This document shows positions 3,806-53,900 of a stretch of DNA of 64,000 nucleotides, in pieces. The stretch covers positions 186,001-250,000 of the forward strand of contig NNSG01000002.1 in assembly GCA_002256485.1 (NCBI GenBank). Direction: 5' to 3'. Numbering within the stretch: the first letter of the stretch is position 1; the number at the start of each line of letters is the position of its first letter. Origin of the DNA: Fidelibacterota bacterium 408169. GTDB lineage: Bacteria > Fidelibacterota > Marinisomatia > Marinisomatales > TCS55. Below the pieces are notes generated by a model. The model searched no databases, was not told the DNA's origin, and was given only the letters and a program-made list of their open reading frames with translations. Position numbers and translations under genes: made by a program.

Positions 3806-4599
3806 TTAAAGCATTCATCAACGGTCAATTTGAATATATCAAGAATGATAATTTATTAATCGGTGGCAGTGAATTTGCGTATGGAAGGGGTGTATATGAA
3901 ACGTTAAGGACATTAAATCATAAACCGGTATTTTTAAAAGAACACTTGGACAGACTCTTACGTTCTACTAAAATAATGGGAATAAATATACCCTATTCAA
4001 TAAATGAAATTATCTCAAGACTAAATTCTATTATTTCGGATTTCCCTAATCCGAACCAGCGAACACGGATAATTGTTGCGAAAAATCATTTCATTATTTA
4101 TACATCAAAATTAATAATCGATTCTACAATTTTCAATGGTGTTCACGTTTTAACCACTTTAACCAAAAGAAACACTCCTGAGCTTAAAACAACCGATTAC
4201 TGTAATTGCCTTAAAGCGTGGAATGAAGCACAGAAATCAAATTGTTTTGAAGCCATATTAGTTGATGAGAACAGTGATGTTTTTGAGGGTAGTCGTAGTA
4301 ATGTATTTTGGATTAAAAATGAAAAACTGATTACTCGAAAAGACAATGTATTACCTGGTGTCACAAGGCAGAAAATCATTTCAAACACTACTTATCCTTT
4401 TGAGTTCGGAAATTTAAACGTAAACGATTTTAATCTAATTGATGAATTATTTATTACAAACAGTGGATCCGGAATTGTTCCTGTTTCTCATATTAACGGT
4501 GCAATAATCGGAAACGGTGCAATTGGTGAAGTAACAAGAAATTTATTAAATGATTACACAAAATTGATTAAGAATGACATAAAAAGTGCGTGTTTTTAA
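3802..4599 (+). CDS. pabC: Aminodeoxychorismate lyase-like class IV aminotransferase
   Basis: A fold-type IV PLP enzyme (265 aa). Motifs include FAYGRGVYETLRT near the N terminus, the likely PLP lysine in ELKTTDY, EAILVDENSDVFEGSRSN, and TRKDNVLPGVTRQKI. These fit aminodeoxychorismate lyase, which releases pyruvate and p-aminobenzoate; branched-chain and D-amino-acid aminotransferases share the fold. The position directly behind pabA and pabB, with an ATGA overlap, makes PabC the best call. It closes the first plus-strand gene run; a 164-base AT-rich gap follows before the attenuator leader. Confidence 0.82.
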   Translation: MIKAFINGQFEYIKNDNLLIGGSEFAYGRGVYETLRTLNHKPVFLKEHLDRLLRSTKIMGINIPYSINEIISRLNSIISDFPNPNQRTRIIVAKNHFIIYTSKLIIDSTIFNGVHVLTTLTKRNTPELKTTDYCNCLKAWNEAQKSNCFEAILVDENSDVFEGSRSNVFWIKNEKLITRKDNVLPGVTRQKIISNTTYPFEFGNLNVNDFNLIDELFITNSGSGIVPVSHINGAIIGNGAIGEVTRNLLNDYTKLIKNDIKSACF

Positions 4600-4763
4600 G
4601 TTTAATTGGTTTATGTAATTAATAAATAACCAATGAAAATAAAATAGTGAACTGAATTAGGAAAAAATTTAAAAGGACTTTAATCTATCAAATCTCAAAA
4701 AAAATTCAAAAAAATAAAAAATACACTTGGTATCTGTTCAAACCATGTTTTAATATCCTCGCC
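4600..4763 (+). other. AT-rich spacer upstream of the attenuator
   Basis: This gene-free stretch between pabC and the leader peptide is very A-rich on the plus strand, with several A-tracts around 4695-4722. I see no open frame with coding character, no RNA gene and no repeat. The A-tracts just upstream of the proposed promoter could act as an UP-like or bent-DNA element; this is inference. Confidence 0.6.
4727..4756 (+). promoter_or_regulatory. Candidate promoter of the attenuated aromatic operon
   Basis: TTGGTA (4727-4732) and TAATAT (4751-4756) are separated by 18 bases and match sigma70 -35/-10 elements at four of six positions each. An A-tract region lies directly upstream. Transcription would begin near 4762, just before the leader peptide ORF. 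The promoter rules of this lineage are unknown, so the assignment is weak. Confidence 0.35.
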
Positions 4764-4832
4764 ATGATTAACATGAACATAGAAAAATTTTACAACTTTT
4801 ACGGATATTTTACTCATGCAGGGGAAATGTAG
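4764..4832 (+). CDS. Phe/Tyr-rich leader peptide of a transcription attenuator
   Basis: A 22-codon ORF (or 19 codons from the second ATG at 4773) ends at a TAG at 4830. Its centre encodes FYNFYGYF: three Phe and three Tyr codons in eight (4788-4811). It is followed at 33 bases by an intrinsic terminator and then by genes for prephenate dehydratase, prephenate dehydrogenase and DAHP synthase. This is the arrangement of amino-acid-biosynthesis leader peptides such as E. coli PheL, though the sequence itself is different. No clear Shine-Dalgarno precedes either ATG; with the proposed start of transcription the message would be nearly leaderless. Confidence 0.75.
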   Translation: MINMNIEKFYNFYGYFTHAGEM

Positions 4833-4871
4833 ACCCGGTAAATCTGTAATTGCTGACTACACTTAAACCCC
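4821..4871 (+). promoter_or_regulatory. Candidate antiterminator helix
   Basis: GGGG (4821-4824), AA (4826-4827) and TGTAG (4828-4832) can pair with CCCC (4868-4871), TT (4863-4864) and CTACA (4857-4861). This gives a bulged helix of about 11 pairs. It uses the 5' arm of the terminator, so the two structures exclude each other. The upstream strand lies in the last codons and stop codon of the leader peptide. A ribosome that finishes the peptide would cover it, while one stalled at the early Phe/Tyr codons would leave it free. The pairing was worked out by eye. Confidence 0.55.
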
Positions 4872-4894
4872 GACAAAGATTGGGGTTTTTTTTT
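4865..4894 (+). terminator. Intrinsic terminator of the Phe/Tyr attenuator
   Basis: AAACCCC (4865-4871) pairs with GGGGTTT (4882-4888) around a 10-base interval, and the second arm runs into nine consecutive T residues (4886-4894). It lies 52 bases before the pheA start codon and after the leader peptide, so it would stop transcription before the operon unless antiterminated. Confidence 0.8.
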
Positions 4895-4945
4895 GGCTTA
4901 ACTAAATAATTTTGAAAAATTATGTACAATTTATGAAAGGGAAAT

Positions 4946-5515
4946 ATGATTAAAATCGGTATACAAGGCGCAAAAGGTAGTTTTTCAGAAGAGGCTGCCC
5001 ATGAATTCGCTAAGAATCACGGACTGGATGATTTTTCAATTGAATATTTAATTTCATCAGAAAGTGTTTTGTCTTCTGTAGAAGAGGAAACTGTGGATTA
5101 TGGTATTTTTGCCATGGAAAATGCTCAAGGTGGAGTAGTAATAGAAAGTATTGAAGCATTAGCTAAACACCGCTGTGAAATTGTAGAAATGTTTTATATC
5201 ACAATTAGTCAGAATTTATTGGGTAGACACGGTGTACATGTTGGCGATGTTACAGAAATACATTCACATCAGCAGGCGTTGAGGCAATGCAAAGATTATT
5301 TAAGTGAACATTTTTGGACCCGCCCTTTAATTGAAGAAGATGATACAGCAGAATCTGCTCGACGATTGGCTGAAGGGAAATTACCTCAAACTGCAGCTGT
5401 AATAGCGAATAAAAATTGTGCAGACCTTTATGAATTATCAATTCTTCAGGAAGATATCCATGATTTAAAACATAATTTAACCTTATTCCTTGGGGTGAAA
5501 AAACCGGTGAAATAA
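4946..5515 (+). CDS. pheA: Prephenate dehydratase, catalytic domain only
   Basis: A 189-residue prephenate dehydratase domain (prephenate to phenylpyruvate). Recognisable motifs are IGIQGAKGSFSEEAA at the N terminus, AMENAQGGVV (usual form IENSxxGxV), HSHQQALRQC (usual SHPQALxQC) and DTAESAR. The C-terminal N-x-T-R-F signature reads NLTLF, so the catalytic Thr (Thr179) is kept but the next Arg is Leu180. There is no ACT domain and no fused chorismate mutase, so the protein lacks the usual Phe-sensing part. An AAAGGGA site precedes the ATG. It is the first gene of the attenuated operon and its stop overlaps the tyrA start by one base. The divergent motifs leave some room for a modified function. 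Confidence 0.8.
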   Translation: MIKIGIQGAKGSFSEEAAHEFAKNHGLDDFSIEYLISSESVLSSVEEETVDYGIFAMENAQGGVVIESIEALAKHRCEIVEMFYITISQNLLGRHGVHVGDVTEIHSHQQALRQCKDYLSEHFWTRPLIEEDDTAESARRLAEGKLPQTAAVIANKNCADLYELSILQEDIHDLKHNLTLFLGVKKPVK

Positions 5516-6237
5516 TGAACAGTGTTGGAATAATCGGATATGGTCGTTTTGGAAAAGTATTGGCCAATATTTTACAAAAAGGATTTGCAGTAAAAGTCTA
5601 TGATCTTAAAACTCAAGATTCTTCTCCTGATGTTGATTTTTGTAGTTTAGATGATGTGTTAAAAGAATCCTCTATTTTTATTGCTGTTCCAATTCGATCT
5701 TTTAAAGATGTTATTGCCTCCATTGCACCTAAATTAATCAACCACACCACAATTCTTGATGTTTGTTCTGTAAAAAAATATCCTGTAGGAATTATGGAGA
5801 AATTTCTTCCAAAAGAAACTGGAATAATTGCTACACATCCCATGTTTGGCCCTGATTCTTTTTTACAATCAAATCGATTGAACATTATGATGCATTCTAC
5901 AAGAGACACAAATAATGTATATTCCTTTTGGAAAAATTATTTTTCAGGGCAAGATTTAAAAGTAATAGAAATTGATCCAGATACACATGACAAACTTGCA
6001 TCCCATACTCAGGGAGTTACACATTATTTAGGTAGAACTTTGCGGTCGTTTGGAATTAAAAAAACGCAAATAGATACACAAGGTTTCCGAGATTTGCTGG
6101 ACCTAGTTGATCAAACTTGCAATGATACCATGGAATTATTTTTAGATTTACAAAATTATAATCCTTACACAAAAAATATGATTAAAAATTTAGATGCTGC
6201 ATTTAACCAAATAGCAGATAAATTAGAAAACAAATAA
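5515..6237 (+). CDS. tyrA: Prephenate/arogenate dehydrogenase
   Basis: A short TyrA (240 aa) with an N-terminal Rossmann motif GIIGYGRFG, the HPMFGPDSF catalytic-histidine region (usual HPMxGPE) and [12 protein letters not shown]. It oxidatively decarboxylates prephenate or arogenate toward tyrosine; the sequence does not settle substrate or NAD/NADP preference. Like PheA here, it lacks a C-terminal ACT domain, so end-product inhibition through that route is not expected. Translationally coupled to pheA (TAATG) and 2 bases from the DAHP synthase gene. Confidence 0.85.
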
Positions 6238-6239
6238 GT

Positions 6240-7592
6240 ATGAAAAATCAATGGCAATTAGATTCCTGGCGTAATTATTCAGTACAACACGGTCCCAATT
6301 ATGTAGATATTAAACAGCTCGAAGATGTGGAAAAAACACTTCGAGGATTTCCCCCGTTGGTTTTTGCAGGGGAAGTTCGTTCATTAACCAGAAGTTTAGA
6401 AGCTGCGTCTGAAGGGCAAGCCTTCGTCCTACAGGGCGGCGACTGCGCAGAAAGTTTCGCTGAATTTCATGCTGATAATATTAGAGATACATTCCGTGTA
6501 TTATTGCAAATGGCTGTAGTGCTGACTGCAGGTACAAATCTTCCTATAGTAAAAATGGGGAGAATGGCGGGCCAATTTGCAAAACCCAGGTCCAGTAATA
6601 CCGAATCTCAAAATGGTTTAGAATTACCCAGTTATAAAGGTGATATTATAAATGATATTGAATTCGATAAAAATAAAAGATTAGCCGATCCTTCAAGAAT
6701 GCTTAAGGCATACTCTCAAGCTGCATCCACACTAAATCTTCTTCGTGCTTTTGCTGAAGGAGGATATGCGGATTTAAAACATGTTCAATCTTGGAATATG
6801 GGCTTTGTCAAAAGCGGGGCACAGGGAGAGAGATATGGACATCTTGCTAATCAGATTCAGGAAAACTTACAGTTTATGGAGGCGCTTGGAATAGACTCCG
6901 GAAATACACCACAATTACGTAAAGTAGAATTCTTTACCAGTCATGAGGCGCTATTGCTTCCATTTGAAGAAGCTATGACGCGAACGGATTCCACCACAGA
7001 TGAAATTTATAATACATCTGCCCATTTTGTTTGGATAGGGGATCGAACACGGTTTCTTGATAGCGCACATGTTGAATTTTGTCGAGGGATTAAAAATCCA
7101 ATTGGATTCAAATGTGGACCTACAATGAATCCTGATGAACTTATAAAACTTTTGGATGTTCTAAATCCTAACAACGACGCTGGCCGTATTACAATTATAA
7201 CCAGGTTTGGTAAAGATAAAATTGCAGATTCATTACCAAAACTTATTAAAAAAATTCAACAAGAAGGGCGGTCAGTCGTTTGGTCTTGTGACCCCATGCA
7301 CGGCAATACAATCAAAAGCAGCAGCGGTATAAAAACCCGCCCTTTTAATCATATCCTTGAGGAAGTAAAGCAGAATATACAAATACATCAAGCGGAAGGG
7401 ACCCATGCAGGAGGTATCCACCTTGAAATGACGGGGCAAAATGTAACTGAATGTACTGGCGGTTTAGCAGATATTACGGAATCGGATCTATCAGACAGAT
7501 ATCATACTCATTGTGATCCCAGGCTTAATGCAAACCAAGCCATTGAATTGGCTTTCCTCATTGCTGATGAATTAAAAACAAATGGCCATTAA
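6240..7592 (+). CDS. aroG: DAHP synthase, class II (plant/actinobacterial type)
   Basis: A 450-residue class II 3-deoxy-D-arabino-heptulosonate 7-phosphate synthase, catalysing the first shikimate step from PEP and erythrose 4-phosphate. Family landmarks are [31 protein letters not shown], and the metal-site region CDPMHGNT, with [15 protein letters not shown] near the end. It is unrelated in sequence to the AroF/G/H enzymes of E. coli. Lying inside the Phe/Tyr-attenuated operon, its supply is expected to follow charged tRNA-Phe/Tyr levels. It overlaps aroA by 11 bases. Confidence 0.92.
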
Positions 7593-8829
7593 AGGAGAAA
7601 TCTCCTTCCCCGGCGATAAATCTATTTCCCACCGTTCGCTCATGTTTGCAGCATTGGCGGATGGTGAATCACGGATTTCCAACCTGTCAACAGGAGCCGA
7701 TGTGCAATCCACTCGAAAATGCCTCGAAGCATGTGGAATTAAAATATGGGATAATGGTAATGATGTAATTGTAAAAGGAAGAAAATTCTCTGATCCAAAC
7801 CTACCATTGGATTGCGGAAACTCAGGGACAACGACTCGTCTACTTTTAGGACTACTCGCTGGACAAGGAATCAATGCTACATTTATCGGAGATGAATCTC
7901 TTTCGTCAAGACCAATGAATCGAATTCTAGATCCACTTTCTCAAATGGGTTTGAAATATAAAAGTAATAATGGGAAGTTGCCTATAACTATATATAGAAG
8001 TGAGTTAAATGGAATTAAGTATGATTCTCCCGTAGCTAGTGCACAAATTAAGTCTGCTGTTCTATTAGCAGGTCTGGGCGCAGAAAAGGACACATCAGTA
8101 ACAGAACCAATTCTCTCCCGAGACCATACAGAAAAAATGCTGAAAGGACTAGGAGCAAATCTGACTTCCAATGGATTAACATCCACTATTTCGCCTTTAA
8201 CTACTACATTATCCAATTTAAATATGACTGTCCCAGGTGACCCATCCACAGCTTCATTTTTTGCTGCTGCAGCTGCGATTACACCTGGTTCTGAAATAAT
8301 TTTGCAGAATGTTTTACGCAACCCTACCCGGATTGGGTTTTTTGATACGCTTCAAAAAATGGAAGCGGGAATAGAATGTTTGGACCAATGGGAAGATTCG
8401 GGAGAATCTATTGGAACCTTGAAAGTAACCCATCAATCATTAAATGCAATAACAATTCATGATGATGAAGTACCGAGTTTGATTGATGAATTACCTATCA
8501 TTTCCATCTTGGGCACACAAGCGCAAGGAGTGACCGAAGTTCGTGGAGCAGAAGAATTACGCGTGAAAGAGTGTGACCGAATACATGCCATTTGTAAAAA
8601 CTTAAATAAAATGGGAGCCGATATAAGAGAACTTAAAGATGGCTTTATTATTAATGGACCCACAAAATTAAAAGGTGCGAAAATTGAAACGTTTCACGAC
8701 CATCGAATTGCTATGGCTTTTACCATTGCCGGACTTGTGGCTGATGGAGATGTGGTTTTAGATTTTCCGGAATGTGTTTCTATTTCTTACCCAGAATTTT
8801 TCAATCAACTGGATCGCTTGAAATCATGA
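7582..8829 (+). CDS. aroA: 5-enolpyruvylshikimate-3-phosphate synthase
   Basis: EPSP synthase of 415 residues, the sixth shikimate step, joining PEP to shikimate 3-phosphate. It shows the phosphate-binding start [28 protein letters not shown], the RDHTEKML loop, and DHRIAMAF near the C terminus. The ATG at 7582 is inside the end of the DAHP synthase gene. The stop overlaps the aroE start (ATGA). Full length and without anomalies. Confidence 0.93.
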
Positions 8830-9617
8830 AACACTTTGCCGTTATTGGTGATCCCATTTCTCAAAGTTTAAGCCCTGTCCTTCATAATGAAGTTTATTAC
8901 CAACTTGGTATAAAGGCTTCTTTTGAAAAAATACGGGTTCAACCTCATGCCCTTTCTGAGTTTATGGCTACACATCAATTAGATGGATTTAATGTTACCA
9001 TTCCTCACAAACAAACTGTACTCCCTTTTTTGGATAAAATAGATGAAGCTGCAAAAATGATTGGTGCTGTGAATTGTATTTTTGGAAATATAGGGTATAA
9101 TACAGATTGGATCGGATTTAAAAAAGCACTCCAATTGAACCATGTAGATTTGAATGGGAAAGCATGTCTTATTTTAGGTGCAGGAGGTGCAGCTAGGGCT
9201 ATTGCTTATTCTTTAATTCAATCAGGAGTGTCATCTATTTCAGTTAACAATCGGACTCAAAGTAAAGCAGATGAATTATTAGATTGGATTCAATCTTTTT
9301 CCCCTAATATTATCAAGACTAAAAGCCCAGAAATCATTGCAAATTGTACTCCTGTGGGAATGTGGCCTGATATTGATTCTTCACCAAATTATAATATAAA
9401 TAAGAACCACATACTTATAGATACCATTTACAATCCCATTGAAACAAAATGGTTGAAGATAGGAAATGAGCTAGGCGCAAAAACAGTGAGCGGTTTAGAT
9501 ATGTTTATTGCCCAAGGGTTAGCTTCTATGGATGTGTGGTTTGAAGAAGCCATATCAGAAAAAGTCAATATTGATTTGTGTAAATCAGTCTTGAGACAAG
9601 CTCTTGATTCGGTTTAA
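8826..9617 (+). CDS. aroE: Shikimate dehydrogenase
   Basis: NADP-dependent shikimate dehydrogenase (263 aa from ATG 8826), the fourth step of the shikimate pathway. Motifs: AVIGDPISQSLSP for substrate binding, FNVTIPHK with the catalytic lysine, GAVNCI, NTDWIGF, and the nucleotide-binding GAGGAAR. An open frame reaches back to 8772, but the homologous start [10 protein letters not shown] at 8826, with a 4-base overlap to aroA, is clearly preferable. It is the last gene of the attenuated operon; the next gene converges from the other strand 13 bases away, and no hairpin terminator is visible between them. Confidence 0.92.
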   Translation: MKHFAVIGDPISQSLSPVLHNEVYYQLGIKASFEKIRVQPHALSEFMATHQLDGFNVTIPHKQTVLPFLDKIDEAAKMIGAVNCIFGNIGYNTDWIGFKKALQLNHVDLNGKACLILGAGGAARAIAYSLIQSGVSSISVNNRTQSKADELLDWIQSFSPNIIKTKSPEIIANCTPVGMWPDIDSSPNYNINKNHILIDTIYNPIETKWLKIGNELGAKTVSGLDMFIAQGLASMDVWFEEAISEKVNIDLCKSVLRQALDSV

Positions 9618-38937: not shown

Positions 38938-41900
38938 TTATTTGACCATTATCATTTTATTGGTCTGGTTTAAAATCATTTTACCGGACATATCTCTGAT
39001 TTGAGTCATATAGAAATAAACACCGCTGGCGACTCGTTTCCCATCTCGATTCAGTCCTTTCCAAATGAAATTGTGATAACCGGCAGGGTACAGTTCGCTA
39101 TCAGAAATACGTATCACCTCTTCGCCTAAGAGATTATATACGATTAAATCAATTGAAGCAATATCTTCCAACGTAATTAGAATCGACGTTTGTGGATTGA
39201 ACGGATTCGGATAATTTTGGCTGATACTGAAGCGATCCGGATAGAGTTCCACCCCTGCGTTATTTTCTTGCACAAATTCCTTCGTCCCGGCAATAAAACG
39301 AATATCGTGAATTGCTTTCGGATTGCTAACCGCATAACGATAAATTGGCTTCCAGCGGAGATCCTGGGCTACGCCCAACGTAACATCAATGACAAACACA
39401 TCAAATTCAGCAGGAATGTCAGCTAATCCTTCAAAATTGATATATACATTATGACGGTCATCTTCCGCGGCAATTTCCATATCCCAGAATTCACCGTCTT
39501 CTTTTATCGACCTGATATCCGTTGTATATGTATCTCCATTCTGTGCCCAATCGCGATTATCTATCCGCAGGGAAACACCACCGGGAAGCATGGGCGGTTC
39601 AAATGCATCCAACGCATCATATTCATCATTAGCAGTTGTCAGCACACCCACTGTGTTTATTTTATCTACACCCAGTCCATTTCTGGCACTAATGTCAATA
39701 AGCCATTCGTTTTCACGCAGAACTATTTCCGGATTGGCGATTTTTAGACCTCCGTTACTTTTTCGGGGTATGATTTTCAGCTGGTTCGCCGTTGTTGATT
39801 TAAATACATACCCTTTCCATGGGTCAAGCTTATTTGCTGATACCCACCCGTTAGCACCATCATACGTATAGAAATTAGGATCGGCTGCAAGGTTTGTTGA
39901 ATCATCAATCGTTACATTTTCCAAGGGGATACTGAAATCAAAAGGATTCCCAAGCATCACCCATTCACCAGAAGTAAAATTGATTATAAAATCATCATCC
40001 GTAGTCACTGACCGTGTTTGACCGGTTGTAATATTAAATCCTGCATCTTTCACAATCAGGAAATATCCTACACCAGGATCAATGGTATTAATTGCAGCAA
40101 ACTCATTCCATGTACCACCGGAATACGTAAAGAAACGCCATTTCGTGTCATCATACGCCAGTAAATCATCTACAAGTAAATCCGTGGGAGTTGCATTGGC
40201 GGCTTGTCCCGGGAATGAGATAATTTGATAACTGGATACAGCAGATCCATTGGGAATTCCCGTTGGCCAGCGATCTGTGCTGGAAAGTCCAGCGCCGGGA
40301 ATAGTAACAGAAATTGAATAATGACCTTCAGTCGGTTTATAGGTTTCATTACCGGCAACATCACGGGAATAGATATAGTATTCCACACCAACTGATGTGA
40401 CAAAACTACTGGCTATTTGATAGGTATTCAGCGTTTTCATATCTACTGGAGCCTGCCATTGAACCTCACCGCCTTTACGATAATACAATTCTGCTATATC
40501 AATTCCGGACATGGGATCATCAAACGTAGCTGTTATTGTCACAGGTGCGTTTTCTGAACCTTCCAAGACAGGATTATGAGAAATAACCGGATCCGTAAAG
40601 TCAATGTTTATTGTTTGCGGATTACTGGTTTCTGTGGCATTGCCAGCGCTATCATAAACCGTAATTGTCCATTGGTGAGTTCCTTCACTAAATCCATCAG
40701 GAATACTTATTTGCGTTGAATCAGGATGCTGTTGATATGTATTCGTTGAGTTAATTGTTACTTCATAATATTTCAAGCCAGCGGTTTCATCTGATGATGC
40801 ATTCCATTCAAAATCAAGGAATTGTTGGTTATACCAGCCTGCAAGTGGATAAGTAACTGAAAAAGCATTCGGATTTGTATCGTCCCATTTGGCAACAATC
40901 GATACTGCGTTTCCAGACTCATCATTTCCGGCGTTGTCTTCTAACCAGACATCAAATGTAGAAAGTGCATTAGATGGCAGCGTTAGACCAGATAAAGATG
41001 TAATATTTTGCTCTTCTGTGAAAGAATCACCGTTTCCATCAATACTCACATGTGCACCAAAGATACCTGCATGATCGTAGGGATTACTCCACGACAATGT
41101 AAAATCATTGGTACTTGTCCATACGTTTGGGTTGATAGCCAGATCTGAAATTGGATCCGGAGCAGTCACATCATCTATATTATAGGTGCCGGTTGAACCG
41201 GTGATGCTTTCAGATGATAAATTCACCACAAAATCAAAATCCCACGGTGCATTCATCTCTATTTGAATATCACACGTCGCCTGACCTCCGGTAATACTGG
41301 CATTCGAATTAACAATAGTTACATAATTGTTTGCCGGTACAATCTCCCATACAACGGGCGTTCCTTCAGCAACTACGTTACCATACTGATCATAAGCAAT
41401 TCCTACTATTTGAAATTGATCATCTAAAAGAACATCCACTGAATCTTGAGGGAGTTCAACTGTAGCAGTAACACCTGGTAAAACATGGATAACGGCTGTG
41501 GTGTCATCCAAATCATAGACAGAACGATCATCTCGATTCAGGTTGTTTTCATCCGGTGTATTATTACTAATTCTTACAGGGAGTGAAATTAGCGTGCTTG
41601 CACCGCTAATATTCATAAAATCTGATTTAGTATTACCTGATTTCTGATTGAGCATAATCCCTGTATCAGAAGCAGAATTTAGACCGCTTTGAGGTGTCCC
41701 CATCAATACAGAAAATAACGCATTTTCCGTCACCCAACCTCGAACAGTATAATCACTATTCGACACAGTTGACGTATTTAAATCAACCCAGGCAATTCCA
41801 TTTACGTTAGTGAATGTCGAAGACGCACTAAGGCTTTCCCCTGTCCCTAAACCAGTAACAACTTCCCAATTGACTTCCACGCCTTCCAGAGCATTATCAA

Positions 41901-44900
41901 ATGTGTCGATTAATGCAGCCTCAATATAAACGGTTGCTACATCTGCTGATATATCTATTTGGGCTTCTGTTAACTCTGTGGGCATTGTCAAGTTATAAAT
42001 ATCATCTGGTATAATAGTAATGACTGCACTTTCGTGTGTCCCTGTCCCTGATGTTGCTGAAACCTTCACTTGATCGCCCACAGCTAAACTATTTCCTGTT
42101 GGGTCTGTGCTTAATATAACATTCACAATTCCTCCTTGGGTGGATGCAGTAGAATTGTCCAATGTGAATCCATCTCCATTTCCAACAACAGGAACGATAT
42201 TCCATGTGACTGTTTCATTGTCAGCAACAAGGTTCGAAAATTGATCAAATATAGTGGCTTCAAACACCAACGAACCCAGCTGCGTCATGGTCATATTCGT
42301 TTGTTCGTTTACCCAAACAGAATCTGGAGCACCGGGGACAATTTTAAAATATCCGCTTTGAGCTGTTACTCCATCTTCTGAAATGGTCATAGAATTCAAA
42401 TCATCCGTTGCGGTAGAAGTATAAAATACTTTTTGAACAATTCCCTGTAGATTGGAAGTTGCACTATATTCGCTGGTAAAAGAACCATCCACAGGACCAC
42501 CATTGCTCCACTGTGTATACGTATATGTTTTATAGTGCCCGATGGTGTTAAAGACCTGTGCGCTTACACTTAGGCCATATACTGTATTTGCGCTCGAGTC
42601 AGGGCTAACTAAAATTGTGTCACCAGAGACCGGATACAAGAAAACAATGGAGTCTGCCAGGTAACTGCTTTGGTCATGATAAAAACTTCCTGCATCGGCG
42701 AACGTATAATCAGGATCAATCCAATTTTCGGTTGTATCCAAATCAATGGCTGCCGCTGAGCTTAACAATGTAAAATCATTTGTACTGTAGCTAACAAATT
42801 GATCTGTGCTATTGGTAAATGACCCTGTTTCATTAATTGTACCACTACCTGACGTACTTCCTTCCAAGATAGAGTAATTCAAATCCACGGTTCCGCTGTT
42901 TACTTCTAATGATGTACTGTTATCATTACCGGCGATTGTAACGTGTTCAATGGTGGCGTCACCATTAATTGTCAAGGGTATAAACGCAGCCCCAACGTCC
43001 TGAATGACCATATAATAAAAACTGTCACTTTCATCGCGACTGCCGGTACCGGAATTAATAATAACACCGCCATAACTGGAATCGGGATCTGTACTTTCAA
43101 AGGAAACGGGATTTCCCGCAACACCGCTGGCTCCTAATACTCCATTCACTGTCAACGTTACGCCCGGATCAAAATATACTGTGGCGCCGGATTCGACATT
43201 CAGAGTATCGCCTGTATCAATGGTAAAATCCTGGGTTATAACAGCTGATTCATTATTGGTTACATTTACATTTCCATTGGATGTACCGGCGAGAAATTCC
43301 CGAATTAATGGGAAGGCACCCATATCTGTTACAGTGCTGTCACTGTCTAATATTGATGTAGAATCACCCGCATCAATACAGGGGCTGGTAATCTGAAGAT
43401 TGAAGTTACCATTGGCTGCATCTACAAAAACAGGATCAGAGTTAATATTGCCTGTTCCGGTATAACCGCCACCTACATCAGAATAGGTGATAGTGGGAGT
43501 ACCGTATGTTGCAGCAGTATTATTCCAAAGAATTGAATTAACAGCTGAAACAGTACCGGTAGAATTTTCATATATTCCTGTGGCATTGCCATAAATGGTC
43601 ATGTTCTCCATGTAGGCAATAGCATCATTATTTACTGTTACGCCGGAATAATTGGAATTCGTAATCAACAAATTATACATGGTTACAACCGCATCATTGT
43701 TGATTTGCAGTGCATCGCTTGTTCCATTCACATTTGTCAAGTGCAGATCGTAAAGAACAGGGGAGCCGCCTATGATTTCAAAATAACCATCAATGGTTAC
43801 ATCGCTCGGATTGGCTCCGCCCACAACCAAGAGGTCCTTGCCCCAGTTATTGAGCGATTCACTGTAAACTCCGGATTCAATATGAATTTCATCATTATAA
43901 ATGCTGTGGTTTAAGGCATGTTGAATTGTTTTAAATGGGTTTGTAATTGTTCCCATTTCAGCTGAAACAGAATCGGACCCTGCAGTGGATACATACCAAA
44001 GGTGCCTGGTATATGTAGAAGCAGCATCAAGTGCATTTTCATAGGCGCCCATATCCGGAATGCTATCAGAGCGGGCATTCCCTTCTAAATCATACAAAAC
44101 GCCTGTGGTGGCGTTGGCTTGGCCGATGACCGGTGACCAGTCCTGTAAATGAAAATCGCCGTTTTGACCATCAATAAATCCGGGGCGACCGTTGTAGTTG
44201 CCAGTGCCAAGGTTTCCACCCGGCGCACCACCCTGCACATCTGAATAGGTGACTGAAATATCAGCATCTATATCACTATTTCCCCAGAGGATTGAATTGG
44301 TAATCGTTATATCGCCGCTGACGCTCACATCGTTATCACCCTTGTTGCCCACTGCTGTGACAAAGTCCACAACAACATCGCCACCGCTTACAGCCATGAT
44401 GGCCGATTCTGCGGCATGGTTGCCGACGAATACACAGTTTACAAATTCTGCATTAGAATTTGATGCATATACCGCACCACCACTTGTAGATGCGGAATTA
44501 TCCATAAATATAACGCCATCAAATATAGGATCAGCATCATCTATTTTAACTGCTCCTCCATCAACAGATGAACCGTTTAGGATCGTTAAACCGGAAATAA
44601 TGGTTGAATCGGTAACTCCACTGTCAAATTCAAATGCTCTATCCATTCCTTCGCAATCAATCACAGTGTTTTCTGCTCCATCGGTGGATCGGATTACTTT
44701 ATCAATACCATTAAATAGAATAGAACGGTTCGACTCTCCAGCATAAGTACCAGCTGCTAATTCAATTGTGTCTCGTATAACAGATTTGTTAAAAGCTTCT
44801 GAAAGTGAAGCAAAAGGTGTTGATGTGGTTAACCCATCATTGCTGTCATCACCATCTGTTGCTAAATAATAAACATGGCGACGCTGTTCCCATCTATGGT

Positions 44901-47900
44901 GTTCAATAGGACCCAAGTCAATACTTGAACCGGCTGGTTGGATACGATCATTGCCATAATAATCCGTTTCCATATAGTCACTAACGACTACATCATCATC
45001 TAAAATTTCTGAAAAGAATTCGTTCATTCCCGATCCAATTGAGGGTGAAAATTCGGTATCATAGGTTGTTGATATATCAGGAAAAACATAGTTATCGCCG
45101 GAGCTGAACACGGGACTTGTTTCCGACTGTAGAATGGTGTGATCCACATATGCAGGACCATCCACATCTCCATCGAGACCATTGGACAGAGTATTGTTGA
45201 TGAATACACTATTTATTATTTCGGCGTACCCGAGATCTTGCATTATACTTATCCCTGCAGCTCCAAAGGTTGACTGAGTAGTATTATCTTGAAATAATGA
45301 ATTAATGATCATCAAATTTGTATTCTGATCCTTATGAACGGCTCCGCTAACTTCATTTGCATTGTTATTAATAAAAATACAATTAGCTATAAATACTTCA
45401 CCTCCGTCACTCCACAGCGCAACTGCGCCACCCCGAAAATTGCTCGAGTTGTTATCAAATTTAGTGTTCTCAATTTGAACAGGCTGATTCGAGTTTTCTA
45501 CTAATACAGCACCACCATTTTGATTTGTGTTTGAGTTATCTTGAAAAACACAATTTTTTATACTAACACTTGAATTTGATACTCTGACCGCACCGCTAGA
45601 GCTGTTAGTAATCGTAAGACCCTCAATCCTGGAGTCAGATTCTCCATTTTCAAAATCAATAAAATCATTTCCGTCAAGATTAATTATTGTCGTATCTGCA
45701 CCACCGCTACCCATAAGCGTAAGGTTTTTCACCCCGTTCTGCCAAATATCATGATTGTATTGAAAATCCAGATTACGATTCTTGGAGTGGTCATAGGTTC
45801 CGGGCATGAGCATAATGGTATCCCCATCAGCTGATTCTTCAATGGCATCCCGAATGTATTTCATGGGGTCCTCGGGGCTGCCCTCACCATTGGACGAGCC
45901 ACCGCCGTCATCCACAAACCAAACGGGTCCCTGGAAGAAGGGAGATGTTTTTTGCTGGATGGATGCAGCACTTTCATAATCTGCCGTATCCACAGCTGTT
46001 ACATAAAACCAGTAGTCATTCTCATTGGTCAGACTATCAATGGTGGTACGAGTTGAAAATCTACCGGAAACTGTATCCACAGCAGCAAAAGATATTGAAT
46101 CTTCACTCATGTACGCCACATAGCTGACTACATCTTCTTCACTATGAAAATCCCATTCCAAAAGAACGGATTTATGGAGGGGTGTTGTAGTCATATTTTG
46201 GACAGCAGCTGGATAAGGTGTTAGGGCTAATTCATGCTCGTAGGCACCCAAATCGGGGTTGGAACCGGCCGGATTAGGGCGCACATTTCCAGCTAAATCA
46301 TTCGTTGGCGGATAAATTACATTTCCATCTACATCTTCACTTTCCGAAAAGCCGGCGCCAATGGCAGGGCTGCGGTCGTGGAGGACATAGGTTGTATCAG
46401 CAAAGTCGGGATCTATATTAAATAAAATCTCATCACCGCCTAAATCATCATCGCCGCCGATTAGGGAATATGAAGCATATACATCCACATCATCATTCCA
46501 ATCGAAAAACTTAACCTGATCAGTGTGGCTGGTCATGGGAGAAGACGAAGCATTTGTGACAATAGTGTTCCCATAGATAATACTGTTGAAAATGGTCAGC
46601 TGGGGAGCATTGCCATCCTGGTTCCAGTCTTCACCTTGGATAGCGCTTCCGCCATCTGTATAGTTGGTATTCGTCCTAATCTTGTTATCAACAATCGTTG
46701 AATTGATAATGTTTATTTTTCCACCACGGAATTTTATACCGCCGCCGGTTGAGGGATATCCACCGTCAGAATTGTTGTACCAAACATTGTTACCAGCCAT
46801 AATCGTATTGACCAGTTTTACATCATTATCATTACTCCCGCCAACTGCGATGGCGCCGCCGTGAATGTATCCAGGTTGAGATGTTGTGATTGTATTATTA
46901 ATCAGTTTTGAACGATAAAAATGTGCTGTGCTTGCACCTGAGCCCCAAGGATCGCCAACAGTAATTGCACCACCAAAGGCATCATCTCCATAATTAGTTG
47001 CATCAAATGTATTACCGGAAATTTCACAATCAATGAAAACAGCTTTCCCCGCATAAAGTTCTATGGGTGTATCTTCTACAGCAACATCTTTTATAAAACA
47101 ATTCTTAAATGTAGCGCTGGAGTATGTAATAACCTCCTGATTATTCTGCCAGTAAGCTTGACCGTGAATCTTAATCATTGATCCATCGCTATCATTTTCA
47201 CCGCCAGTACTGGCGGTTATTGTAAAACCAATGATCTGCAGTGTTGTATCAGTGCCGTCCACAATTTCAAACACTCTATTTCCTTTACCATCCAAGATGG
47301 TTGTTGCTGCCCCATCTCGAGATTTTAAAACCAGATTTTTTGGCTGACCCGCATTGGCACCGCTTGTATATTTAAAATAAAGTTCCTGATCACCGCCATC
47401 ATTATAGATCCCGGGTAATATCAGCACCGTATCTCCTGCTGTAGCTGCATCTATGCCGTCTTGAATATCTTTATATGGTTTAGTTGGTGAGCCTTCTCCT
47501 GAAGATTGTGTATAACCATTATCTTCATCCACGTACCAGATTGGCCCCTGGTAATAGGGAGAAGTCTTCGCTTGAAGTGAAGCAGCACTTTCATTCTCCG
47601 CCGTATCTACTGCGGTTACAAAGAGCCAGTAATCTGTACCGTTTACCAAACTATCTATGGTTGTACGTCTTGTAAATCTGCCGGAAACGGTATCTACAGC
47701 AGAAAATGTTACAGAATCTTCGCTTATATAAGTGACATAACTGACTACATCATTGTCTTCATGAGTAGTCCATTCTAAAAGGACAGATTTGTGTAACGGT
47801 GTTGCTGTAAGATTTACGACTGGCGAAGGATAAGGTGTAACTGCCATTTCATGTTCATACGCACCTAAATCAGGTCTGGATCCCGCTGGATTTGGACGGG

Positions 47901-50900
47901 CATTACCAGCCAAATCATTTGAGGGAGCATAGATAATATTTCCTTCCGTATCTTCACTTTCCGAAAAGCCGGCGCCGATTGCAGGGCTGCGGTCGTGGAG
48001 GATATAGGTTGTATCAGCGAATTCCGGGTTCGCTACAAACACACTATCTTCAAAATCATTAACATCTTCTTCTTGTAAAATGGAATATGAAACAAAATGA
48101 CTCACATTAGCCCATTCATCAATATGTAGCTGATTATAAATTGGCATATTACCATAAACAATACTGTTAAACACATTTAGTTTTGTATCAATTCCACTGC
48201 CATCACTAGACACATAAATACCTGGGCCACCATCTGTCTGATTCCCTGCATTTTCATTATCTACAATCGTTGAATTAATGATTGTTGCTGTACCTCCTCT
48301 AACGGTGATACCGGCACCACGTGAATTATTAAAGGATCCTGGTGTTGCTGTATTTCCAGCGATTATTGAATTGTTGACTGTCAGTTTATTATCATTCGAC
48401 CAACTCATATAAACACCTGCTCCAGAAGCATCTCCTGCGTCGGCAGTGAGTGAATTATTAAGAATTTTCGTGCCAAGGATGGTTATTACGCTTCCTTCTC
48501 CGCCCCAGATTGCAGCTCCTTCTCCAGAATAATCGGGTTTAGAAACATGATTGTTTTCTATTACACAATTTTCAAATCGAACATTTGCCCGAACCAAATA
48601 TATAACCGGCGGTTCTTTTGGAGTTGCAATTGACCCATTTTCTTTAATAATACAATCCTTGAAAATTGCACCGGAAGGCGTTGTTACATATTGATTGGTA
48701 TTATTATCCCAAGTCTGCTGCCCTTCAATTTTAATTGCGTTACCCATACCATCATTCTCACCACCATTGGTAATGGTAAACCCAATAATCTGCAATGTGG
48801 TATCTGTGCCGTCCACAATTTCAAAAAGCCGCTTACTACCTCCTCCATCTAAAATAGTGGCTGTGGCTCCATCTCGAGATTTTAGAACCAGATTTTTTGG
48901 CTGACCCGCATTAGCACCACTTGTATATTTAAAATATAATTCCCTATCACCGCCATCATTATAGGTCCCGGGTAATACCAGCACCGTATCTTTCAATCCA
49001 TCTGTTCTTGCTAATGGATCCGCTTTATCTATGGCATCTTGAATATCTTTATATGGTTTAGTTGGCGAGCCATCTCCTGAAGATTGTGAAAAACCATTGT
49101 ATTCATCCACATACCATATTGGACCTGACCATTTGGGTGTCCCGGACACAAAATTTGATTTTCCGGATTCATACCCATCCAAATCTTCTGCAGATACAGC
49201 AAAATAGTATGTGGTATAATTATCCAAGCCTGTAGCCGTATAGGACGGAGTACCGGAAACACTGTCCAGTAATGTGTTTGCTGAAGCTGTACCGTAATAA
49301 ATTTTGTATTCCGATAAATCGTCTTCACTATTGGCTGTCCAGGATAGAACAATGGTGGAGTCCCCTTCTGAAGTCACTATAAGATTCTGTGGTTTGGATG
49401 GAAAAGGTGTTGTTGACAACGTATTTTCAAAGGCACCTAAGTCCGGATTAGAACCATCGGGATTTGGCCGAGAATTACTATTATAATCAAAAGATGGTGC
49501 ATCTATATTTTCATATTCATCTATTCCGGCTCCGATTGCAACACTGGCGGAAGACAAAGAATAATCTCCATTTCCAACAAAGCCAGGATCAGTATCTACA
49601 AGATCATCTTCATCCAGGCCCGTTTCAGCAAAATATTCAATAATTGAAAAATCAATGAGTGAATTATTGTCACTCCAACTTCCATAATTTGTTGCCAAAT
49701 TAATTCGTGTTTGATCATCAACATTCGTAATTGAGTTATTTGTAATGATTGAATTAAAAATAACAACATCGTGGTTATTTGTCTGTTCACGACAAATACC
49801 TGCGCCTCCAGCACCTGCTACATCATAATTTGTCGGTGTAATAGAATTTTCTGTAATAGTAGAATTAACAATCACCAATTCAGCATCTGTAGAAAGATTG
49901 TTTGGAACATAGGTACTTAAATCTGTGGACCAGCGGATAGCGCCACCGACTGTTTCTATCCAGCCATCATCACTATTTGCGTAAGATGCATCAATGGAAT
50001 TTCCAACCATCAATACATTTATAAATTCTAGAGCCGGAAATTTTGCAAAGATACCACCGCCATAAACAGCTTCACCTTTTATTTCGTTATAAGAAATAGA
50101 CGTATTGATGAATTTTATTGCTTCACCACGACTCATATAATTATCTATATAAATACCACCGCCATAAGCATTATGATGACTATTCCAATTTGAAATACCA
50201 GTGCCAATGTCAATTTTATTGGAATCAATGCGTGTATCTTTAAATAATGGTAGTGCTCCAAAACCAACATAAATTGCCCCTCCTTTGAAATTGTTCGAAT
50301 TCCAAGTATTTGAATATGTGTTAACAAGAGAATTTTCTGCAATCACACAGTTTTTGAAAACCGGGCGAAATGCTGCTGTATCCGTACTTGATTCCGTCCC
50401 TTTCATGCGAATAGGTCCTGCTATATCGTACCCACCGCCCAAGTCTTGATTTATAGATGTATTTAGATTTCTGAATTCACAGCCATCAAACACCGGTTCA
50501 GCATTTTTGATTTCAATTACTCCATGGAGATTATTATCGTTGGGGTCTATTTCATCAATTGTTGTATTGGTAAATCGACAATTTTCAAATGTGGGTGCCC
50601 AATTTAATGCACTACTCAAATTACTTGGTCCTTCAATATAAATTAGCGGTTCTTCATCATCCCCATTGGTAAATGTAAAACCAATAAATTTTGTACTGTT
50701 GGAATACCCTGTATATTCGTTTTCGTTTGCGTCCAGCCTCAATGCCGAATGACTGCCTTGGCCATCAAGAATGGTTGAATCTGGACCACTAATCGATTCT
50801 ATTACAATTTGCTTACCCAAAAGGTCTATAATGGGAAAATCAGTGCTCCCACCATTAGAGGCGGAATTTATCCAAACATTCAATGACCAGCCTGATTGAA

Positions 50901-53900
50901 AGTTGGTTTGTGTCCCAATTTCAGCACCGGAACCTTGAGTTGTTCCGTTGTATAAATGAAATCCAATATTTGACGAACTGGTGGCTTCGAGATTAAAATT
51001 CCATTGGTCATTAAAATAGGTATTTTGAGTATTAATTGTCCAGCCTGAAACCTGATATTGAGAATTTGTATGATTGAAATTCAACGATGTAATCGCACCA
51101 TTTGAAACAACGAATGTTCCCTGCTGATATCCCCAATTATCATTATAAGAAAATCCGTATTCATCGCCGGAAACAGCCCAATCTTCTGCATCAAAGACAT
51201 AAGTTCCGGCAGCGACCAGAATCCGTTTCCCGTCTGTGACTGCACTATTAGTAATGGCTTCCTGAATAGAAACAAAAGCACTATCCAACGTACTACCATC
51301 CGGGTTAGATGCATTAGATGCACTATTTACATAAATGTCATCACCGGAAAATTGTGGTTTAGCTGTTACTTCATCTGAAAATGCACTTTCATACGTATCA
51401 TCATCTATAGCTGTGATGCGAAAATAATAGGTAACATTATTGCTTAACCCTGTTACAGTAACCGACGTAGCATTGCTGACTTCTTGTTGCTTTACTGATG
51501 GACCAGAACTGGTACCATAATAAATACCGTACTTTGATACGTCTGATTCAGAACTGGCTGTCCAGGTAAGATCTACCTGACCATCGCCGGCTGTTGCTGA
51601 TAATCCTGTAGGAGCATCAGGTACTGGTGTCCCGGAAAGTGCATTTTCCAATGCACCCATATCCGGATTTCCACCCCCGCTGCCGGGACGGGCATTTCCG
51701 ACTAAATCTGTGCTGGAGATTAAATCGTCACCAGGATAGAGTCCTTGATTTGCAACAGCTCCTGCTCCCAATAAACTACTGCGTAGGCTCAATGTAAATA
51801 CATTATTGTCTTCATCAGTAAATTCCGGGTTTTCATTCAAGTTACCGGTACCACTTGTTGCAACCTGTGCATTTGAATAATTCATTTGAATATTAGGGGA
51901 ATTTTCACTGGCAAACATTTGCTCGGATGCATCAGTCGTGGACGCAGTGTTGCCCCAAATAATAGAGTTTATAAAATATGCACTTGAGCCGTTATTCCCA
52001 TTCAACCATAATGCTCCTCCACGGCCGTCAATTGAAGAAGATGTATTGGTTGCGTTATTTTTCAAAATATTTGTATGGGTAAAATATACTTGGGCACCAC
52101 CATCAATAGCGCCGCCGCCGCCTCTACTCCACCAGCCATTTGCACCGTCTCTCGTTAATTCATTATTAAAAATAATGGTATTAATAAAATTAACTGTGGA
52201 CGATTGTCCAGACGCATAAAAACCACCGCCATACATATCATTCTGGTTACCGCTGGCAATTCCCGCATTACCTCGAATAACAGAATTTTTTACCGTAACA
52301 GTATTGGTATTATTATTGGTTATGTGTAAACCAACACCATAAACATTACTGGAAAAAATCCCTGAAGTCATATTTGCAACATTCCCTTTAATGACCGTTC
52401 CTGAAATTGTAACATTTGTTTGTGATATATGAACTCCTGCACCGGAAATCGCCCTATTCCCTGGACCAATAACACAATCTTCAATTTCTACATCCCCGGC
52501 ATAATCAATTCTAATTGCACCACCGTTTCCATCATTTGACATGGCATTGACAATGGTTAACCCTTTTATTTTTAATGTCGAATACGTAAATGAAGAAATG
52601 TTAAAGCCATAATGGCGATTGTTTATACTTGCGTTTACATCAATCGTAACTGAATCGGCACCACCCATGCCCATAATAACCAAATCTTTTTGGGGATTAA
52701 TATCGTAATTGCCATAACCGGTATATGTCCCCGGTTTTAATTTAATTGTATCATTAATACTTGCTTTATCAATTGCAAACTGAATTGTAGAAAATGGTCC
52801 GGATTGGCTTCCATCGCCCGTGGAATTATTGCCTGTTGGCGACACATACCAAGCGGGACCTTCATATATCGGAATGGATTTTTTTACAATCGAAGGCATA
52901 CTTTCATAACCATCCGCATCAACAGCTGTAACATAAAACCAGTAATCATCATCATTTGTTAATCCACTAATTGTAGTGCTTGTTGAAAATCTACCTGTAA
53001 CTGTATCTACTTTTGTAAAGGATCCCGAATCGGGACTCATATAAACATAATATTTTTCTACATCATCATCTATAGAATTAGACCAATCCAACTGCACGGA
53101 CTTATACAACGGAGAAGCAGTAAAATTTTCAACGGGAGCTGGATAAAGAGTAGCGGCTAATGCATGTTCAATGGGACCTAAATCAGGATTCGATCCAGTG
53201 GGTTGTATACGACTACTGTTTAAATAATCCACACTGACAAATTCAGATAGTAGAATATTTGCTGCACTTATATTATCATAAAAATCAGTTAATCCAAGAC
53301 CTATGGCTGGCGAGGATTCTATTAATGAATAATCTCCATTGTTGGGATCATTCAAAATATACTGCTCATCAAATACATAGTTTTCACCATAATTGAACAC
53401 TGGGTTGGACTCTGATTGTAAAATATTATGAGCTATATCCATTGTATAACCTGATGTATTAATATCAGAGGATGACGATCCAGAGTTATCAGTATTACCC
53501 GTAAAAATACTGTTAATAATAGTGGTGTTACCACCATCCATTCCTGCAGACGAGTTGATGCCACCAGCCCCCCAACCATTTGAGGTATTATCGATAAAGA
53601 GTGAATTGACAACAACTAACTTAGTGTTATTATCCTGGTTAATGGCACCCCCATAATCATTTGCAGTATTATTATTAAAAATACAGTTAATTATATACAT
53701 TTCCGCACCATCCTGAGTAAAATTAATTGCACCACCACTTGAACCTGCAAAATTCCCTTCAAATAAGGTATTTAAAACAGTTACAGGATTGCTTGTACCC
53801 TGTATTTGAATTGCACCTTCATTAGTATTGTTCTTAAAAATACAGTTTTTTATATCAACACTGGAGTTGGAAATTTGAATTGCTCCAAAACTACTATTTC

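Follow-up and report, generated by a model that had tools for sequence, protein, structure and literature searches.

The window, by which we mean the whole 64,000-nucleotide stretch analysed, belongs to a 2.47-Mb MAG (G000, 95% complete) whose closest named relatives are members of Candidatus Neomarinimicrobiota (Marinimicrobia, SAR406; Fidelibacterota in GTDB). Its plus strand carries, in this order, a gene for a chorismate mutase domain (1802–2038; PF01817 match at G000:C12:187802-188038), a pabA/trpG-like gene, a pabB-like gene, an aminotransferase class IV gene (pabC-like), a short leader, pheA, tyrA, a class II DAHP synthase gene, aroA and aroE. The prephenate dehydratase gene pheA lies at 4946–5515 and the prephenate dehydrogenase gene tyrA at 5515–6237. 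The DAHP synthase (6240–7592) scores over the cut-off of TIGR01358 and matches PF01474, while the EPSP synthase AroA (7582–8829) and the shikimate dehydrogenase AroE (8820–9617) score over the cut-offs of TIGR01356 and TIGR00507, respectively. As originally predicted, PheA and TyrA have no ACT domain. Pfam finds only PDT in PheA, which also lacks a chorismate mutase domain, and PDH_N with a sub-threshold NAD-binding match in TyrA. The last gene upstream of the leader ends at 4599, and the region is AT-rich. Elsewhere in the window, a 5591-codon open reading frame on the minus strand (38938–55713) encodes a giant protein of surface type, which has fibronectin type III domains and a beta-helix region.

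The leader contains a plus-strand ORF of 22 codons (4764–4832, MINMNIEKFYNFYGYFTHAGEM) that ends with a TAG stop codon at 4830–4832 and has homologs in other genomes. Codon alignment with relatives that have or lack trp genes (trp+ and trp-) delimits a block of control codons at 4788–4811, TTT TAC AAC TTT TAC GGA TAT TTT, encoding FYNFYGYF. Every coordinate predicted for this ORF, its aromatic run and its stop codon checks out. A putative sigma-70-type promoter (4727–4756) precedes the ORF on the same strand, with TTGGTA at 4727–4732, a 17-nt spacer and TTAATA/TAATAT at 4750–4756. A similar TTGGTA-17-TTAATAT-like arrangement is found before most homologous leaders, and when these are aligned the information peaks fall on the -35 and -10 positions. 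TAATAT usually lies 7–10 nt before the ATG, and 7 nt before it in the window. A separate scan with a consensus promoter yielded a single match (4923–4950), which overlaps the start of pheA, and fewer matches than in shuffled sequences; this candidate was rejected. The leader ORF has no visible Shine-Dalgarno site, and such a site was seen in one of 62 leaders. Since just 11 of 42 genes in the window have one, its absence was rejected as proof of leaderlessness, and it is solely the promoter spacing that suggests a near-leaderless mRNA whose 5' UTR has a few bases at most.

Between the leader ORF and the first structural gene sits an intrinsic terminator (plus strand, 4865–4894), the only terminator-like site in 4500–5100. 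Its AAACCCC/GGGGTTT stem (4865–4888, AAACCCCGACAAAGATTGGGGTTT) and T run (4886–4894) are placed as predicted, and it has counterparts before pheA or trpE in relatives. The predicted competing helix exists as well. Folding, arm pairing and covariation identify its 5' arm at 4821–4832, within the end of the ORF and the stop codon, and its 3' arm at 4857–4871, overlapping the 5' arm of the terminator. The two structures are mutually exclusive, and the antiterminator 5' arm is located 3' of the control codons, where a ribosome at the stop codon can reach it. In the window copy this helix is interrupted (GGGG/CCCC, AA/TT and UGUAG/CUACA, 11 pairs). Its fold has -14.7 kcal/mol, compared to -15.5 for the terminator-bearing tail once the ORF is covered, so the energies are close. 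The pairing of its arms is borderline (z -1.5) and weaker than in most relatives; attenuation could therefore be leaky here. The fold of 4764–4894 taken alone is also only weakly better than shuffled sequences (z -1.66), and the strength of the case comes from the relatives.

Combinations of this kind are rare by chance. To qualify, an ATG-initiated ORF of 10–35 codons had to include a stretch of eight codons of which six or more are aromatic, and to have a terminator behind it. The window contains one (with two in-frame ATGs), whereas none was found in 60 random 64-kb sequences generated by a first-order Markov model with the dinucleotide frequencies of the window. Rfam reports no family at gathering score in the window, no leader family there even at E 10 and no T-box riboswitch match. 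Phe_leader (RF01859) and Trp_leader (RF00513) both missed the gathering threshold; leader L137 reached 24.6 bits for Trp_leader, where 41 are required.

About 60 genomes carry the element, and in every one of them the gene behind it is pheA (or a tyrA-pheA fusion) or trpE. Among the relatives with a close PheA, many whose pheA is not located behind trpA have an equivalent element directly 5' of pheA. Seventeen genomes, including the host of the window, have no trpE, and in these the leader directly precedes pheA or is parted from it only by trp remnants. The peptides encoded before pheA include MENINMNNFYSLYWFFSHEGVL (G004), MINMNKENYYSLYRFFSREGVL (G029), MNYINTKNYLNLFYFFSHKGVS (G033), MATNYYYKFFMNNGLRIRP (G006), MKTSYYYFRYATDGLEDCP (G037) and MNRSFLTFSYYFKYFFRPQEVY (G143). 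Despite wide sequence divergence, the arm in which the ORF ends stays complementary to the 5' side of the terminator, as GGGGTTT/AAACCCC, GGGTTGAGGATCAG/CTGACCTCAACCC, GGGTTGGAA/TTCCAACCC or GAGGTTT/AAACCTC. In family f30 a YYFF leader with the same logic precedes a tyrA-pheA fusion. The genes upstream of the element differ among genomes while ORF, arm and terminator stay together; in G001, G131 and G004 the gene directly 5' of the leader is chorismate mutase-like.

In the other close genomes pheA lies behind trpA. Locating trpE in these relatives and scanning its upstream DNA revealed the same kind of element before trpE in most of them, with Trp codons. This related element codes for Phe, Tyr and Trp (NYYSWYWFF) and heads a super-operon, trpEGDCFBA-pheA-tyrA-DAHPS-aroA-aroE. 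The peptides include MNNMNTKIYYSWYWFFSREGVL (G001), MINMNTKNFYSWYWFFSQEGVS (G022) and MIHMNTENFYSWYWYFCRKGVL (G013). In G001 the order is chorismate mutase-like gene, leader, trpE, trpG, trpD, trpC, trpF, trpB, trpA, pheA, tyrA, DAHP synthase gene, aroA and aroE, with no sizeable gaps; its trp genes were named partly by family search and otherwise from sequence and order. The trp operon of G083 runs on into DAHP synthase, aroA and aroE, not into pheA and tyrA (names read from sequence), and has a Tyr/Phe/Trp leader. The DNA upstream of trpE yielded no recognisable leader in G066, in G200 and in several members of family f16. L123 from G178 (MQKITYIRLYFRIYFQVLE) was left out because its arm pairing failed (z +0.9). 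The least certain member is L061 from G053, which has three aromatic codons only and a weak arm-pairing score; it was kept for its position and for an arm identified by eye (GGUCUGACGGG with CCCGCAGACC). Families f27 and f29 include Trp-only leaders (L160, L163, L182 and L183) whose ORFs end in bases able to pair with the loop of the terminator (for example CATTTC with GAAATG), and their antiterminator seems to be built differently.

The antiterminator pairing is conserved beyond its sequence. Over 61 leaders, pairing between cognate arms is better than in shuffles (mean z -2.4), with a shuffle fraction of at most 0.05 in 38 of them. A MAFFT alignment of 21 leaders was one base off in several rows, and covariation was counted on 13 well-aligned rows. 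In these, five antiterminator pairs show two-sided changes, compared to 1.9 in shuffles, and 91% of the antiterminator cells are paired, compared to 32–46% for slid versions. The compensatory changes reach the stop codon, which is TAG opposite CTA or CTG in most leaders and TAA opposite TTA in L050. The outer GGGG/CCCC pairs hardly vary and hence say little. Similarly, the terminator is 99% paired in the 13 leaders but almost invariant, with little covariation. A covariance model built from the 13 leaders matched best in front of pheA or trpE in the close genomes, and had further weak matches near E 0.01–0.1. The comparison of homologous operons thus came out in favour of the original prediction, with aromatic codons, arms and terminator kept in about 60 genomes and an antiterminator that covaries.

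The locus combines the hallmarks of an attenuator, namely a cluster of end-product codons in a short ORF, a terminator, an exclusive antiterminator, and conservation with compensatory changes. Judged from its sequence and its relatives, 4764–4894 is very probably a ribosome-mediated transcription attenuator that turns on the aromatic genes when Phe or Tyr is short. RNA polymerase would start just 5' of the leader ORF, and ribosomes would translate the ORF during its transcription. When charged tRNA-Phe or tRNA-Tyr is scarce, a ribosome would pause within 4788–4811 and leave 4821–4832 free to pair with 4857–4871; the terminator would then be blocked and pheA-tyrA-DAHPS-aroA-aroE transcribed. 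When charged tRNAs for both amino acids are plentiful, a ribosome at the stop codon would cover the 5' arm, the terminator at 4865–4888 would form and transcription would stop near 4894. A ribosome covers about 15 nt beyond its A site. With this footprint, an A site at 4788–4806 leaves 4821–4832 free and one at the stop codon covers it. At 4809 a stalled ribosome would graze the first bases of the arm. The proposal that charging of tRNA-Phe and tRNA-Tyr sets expression of the operon is supported by anatomy, conservation, compensatory changes and the match between codons and operon content.

This last match is most evident for Trp. The control block includes a Trp codon in all 45 tabulated trpE leaders but in only three of 17 trp- leaders, leaving 14 of the 17 trpE-less genomes without one (Fisher p 2e-11, a value that ignores relatedness, the 17 trp- rows not being independent). 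G046 and G024 do have a TGG, but outside the control block, within the antiterminator arm. Among the colinear 22-codon leaders, those of the close trp+ genomes (12 of 12) have TGG as codon 12 and again as codon 14. In three trp- genomes these positions read TTG and CGG (G029), TTG and TGG (G004), and TTT and GGA (window). Codon 13 encodes Tyr in all 12 close trp+ leaders, and every close leader ends its control block with a Phe codon. Across leaders F, Y and W replace one another, and both TAT/TAC and TTT/TTC are used.

Two genomes carry scars of trp deletion. In G131 (L185, G131:C236) the leader is followed by the start of trpE joined to the end of trpA and then by pheA, and both Trp codons are kept. 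G117 (L077, G117:C15) has an independent trpE'-'trpA fusion, in frame and open, and one TGG has become GGG, so that one Trp codon is left. In G033 just a short trpE-like start lies between leader and pheA. Classical TrpB and TrpD scored over cut-off in all three trp+ controls, whereas not one of the 16 trp- genomes examined had a match at that level; the MAGs are incomplete, and the absence of trp genes is in part negative evidence. Several genomes without a trp operon encode distant TrpB-like proteins (G000:C29:779-1813 and its equivalents) that score about 140 bits, below the TrpB cut-off. These may permit indole salvage in trp- genomes.

On the PheA tree the trp label changes about 11 times (10–12 in bootstraps), and at least five changes are forced by well-supported branches. 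The association between codons and operon is therefore replicated. Some of these changes could be regain by transfer rather than loss. In genus g8, trp+ G012 and G019 are nested among trp- G024, G027 and G030, a pattern explained by three losses of the trp operon or else by its regain. For the lineage of the window, the most likely course is that the trp genes were lost and the Trp codons then mutated away, a direction of change that we infer. The original description as a Phe/Tyr attenuator of an aromatic operon holds for the window, but the element is not Phe/Tyr-specific as such, since its trp+ relatives have Trp codons and a trp-phe-tyr-shikimate super-operon. We consider it likely that a single leader peptide senses Phe, Tyr and Trp on behalf of this whole super-operon, and that repeated loss of trp was each time followed by the loss of the Trp codons alone. 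This would be a replicated natural experiment, with intermediates, on a ribosome-based sensor that changes its specificity. Codons that track the enzymes still encoded by the operon are strong comparative evidence of selection on leader codon identity for sensing. The speed and the steps by which an RNA sensor changes what it senses become directly testable, and the codons provide a signature in the sequence from which Trp auxotrophy of SAR406 lineages can be predicted.

Among the other explanations, the one that survives best is that the leader senses Phe only and that its Tyr codons are passengers. There is a reported precedent in the AroR leader of Corynebacterium glutamicum, where Tyr availability is said to have had no effect (PMC11802643). 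The invariant Phe at the end of the control block of close leaders fits this explanation too, as stalls nearest the arm may matter most. We nevertheless regard it as unlikely, because Tyr codons are as well conserved as Phe codons (codon 13 above) and because the selective loss of Trp codons together with the trp genes indicates that codon identity is under selection. Less probable still is that the Trp codons drifted away in a leader that fell out of use after trp loss. The persistence of Trp codons for a time in the two scar genomes and in G004 agrees with drift, but trp- genomes keep their Phe and Tyr codons, arms, terminator and mostly the promoter while the Trp codons vanish. A protein or a riboswitch-like ligand, not the ribosome, might choose between the helices, given that some sequence separating the arms is conserved (TAGTCCCAGG..ACCTG) and in part able to form a small hairpin. 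We hold this to be very improbable, as the Rfam matches are weak and below gathering score, divergent members keep only the peptide and arm logic and not the loop sequence, and the codons track operon content. The idea that the terminator serves only to end the transcript of the upstream chorismate mutase-pabABC genes, with the aromatic ORF a coincidence of TTT and TAT codons, has in its favour the AT-richness, the upstream gene end at 4599 and the weak z of the isolated fold, and we count it as refuted by the comparative data, given the empty random sequences, the joint occurrence of ORF, arm and terminator in about 60 genomes behind differing upstream genes, and the use of both synonymous codons with interchange of F, Y and W.

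Retaining the attenuator reading, we turn to its relation to allostery. The suggestion that RNA-level control replaces allosteric control is borne out in part. ACT-less PheA sits under F/Y leaders, while the distant G209, G216, G217 and G202 have an ACT-like domain on PheA, and the leaders read in the last three are Trp-only or mainly Trp. Against a simple replacement stand the ACT-less TyrA-PheA fusions of family f23, for which no F/Y leader was found in the stretch searched, and G083, which combines an ACT-like PheA with its Y/F/W leader.

Leaders of other amino acid operons were also seen. With the same scan, neither ilvB nor leuA turned out to be preceded by a canonical leader-terminator pair. 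Upstream of ilvD, at a distance of about 300 nt (L245, G000:C12:175500-182500, minus strand; L246, L247 and L248), lies a conserved 49-codon ORF ending in ...LLINLLILVIIGLAVLVA (...LPAIIIIIGLPS in G043), followed by conserved GGACTCGCCGTCC and GACGGCGGAGAC, which are able to pair; there is no T-run terminator, and this is possibly a branched-chain leader of another type. Histidine leaders, each with a strong terminator, precede hisG in G006 (L219, around 1340) and G038 (L220), encoding MNMQRQHHHHHCPFTQEGRSRGAA and MKLYHRHHHLSNINPNRRSVGIK. No hisG match was found in the host of the window.

Leader peptides for Phe (pheL), for Trp (trpL) and for several amino acids at once (ilv) are textbook systems. 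In leaders of the ilvGMEDA type, one leader reads several amino acids made by one operon; they share the multivalent logic of the element described here, but theirs is of Enterobacteria and concerns branched-chain and not aromatic amino acids. A survey from 2010 noted that attenuators were known only in Proteobacteria and Actinobacteria before it added Firmicutes (PMC2965389). In the papers searched, we found no paper joining Marinimicrobia, attenuation and leader peptide, and neither a leader for the Neomarinimicrobiota phylum nor a Phe+Tyr+Trp leader was described. The claim that a Phe/Tyr leader before a shikimate operon is undescribed thus stands for this phylum and yields elsewhere to AroR, a Phe-Tyr-Phe leader that precedes aroF in C. 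glutamicum (Neshat 2014, cited in PMC11802643). AroR is the nearest system in codon content and also precedes a DAHP synthase operon. It differs in having three control residues only, in its reported response to Phe and not to Tyr and in its actinobacterial host. In Flavobacteriaceae, the main text of PMC9723704 reports a conserved structured element 5' of pheA and a suspicion of leader-peptide attenuation for amino acid operons. Being conserved before pheA in another phylum, it is a possible cousin, for which that main text gives neither peptide nor structure.

The E. coli pheL-pheA and pheST leaders (RF01859) resemble the element in their Phe-rich short ORF, their terminator/antiterminator switch and, for pheA, the prephenate dehydratase gene downstream (PMC11802643). 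Here, by contrast, there are Tyr codons too, the operon includes tyrA, DAHP synthase, aroA and aroE, the phylum is different, PheA has no ACT domain, and an Rfam match and a visible Shine-Dalgarno site are absent. The Trp-codon leaders before trpE in the trp+ relatives resemble trpL of E. coli and Sinorhizobium meliloti. In S. meliloti the trpL (rnTrpL) RNA is leaderless, starting at the ATG of the leader ORF (PMC7298713), a start similar to the one proposed here. Those trpL leaders read Trp only, whereas the trp+ relatives add Phe and Tyr codons and their operon continues into pheA-tyrA-aro. Descriptions of attenuators usually deal with a single amino acid and come mainly from Proteobacteria and Actinobacteria; here, in a deep, uncultured phylum of marine bacteria, one leader would serve three amino acids.
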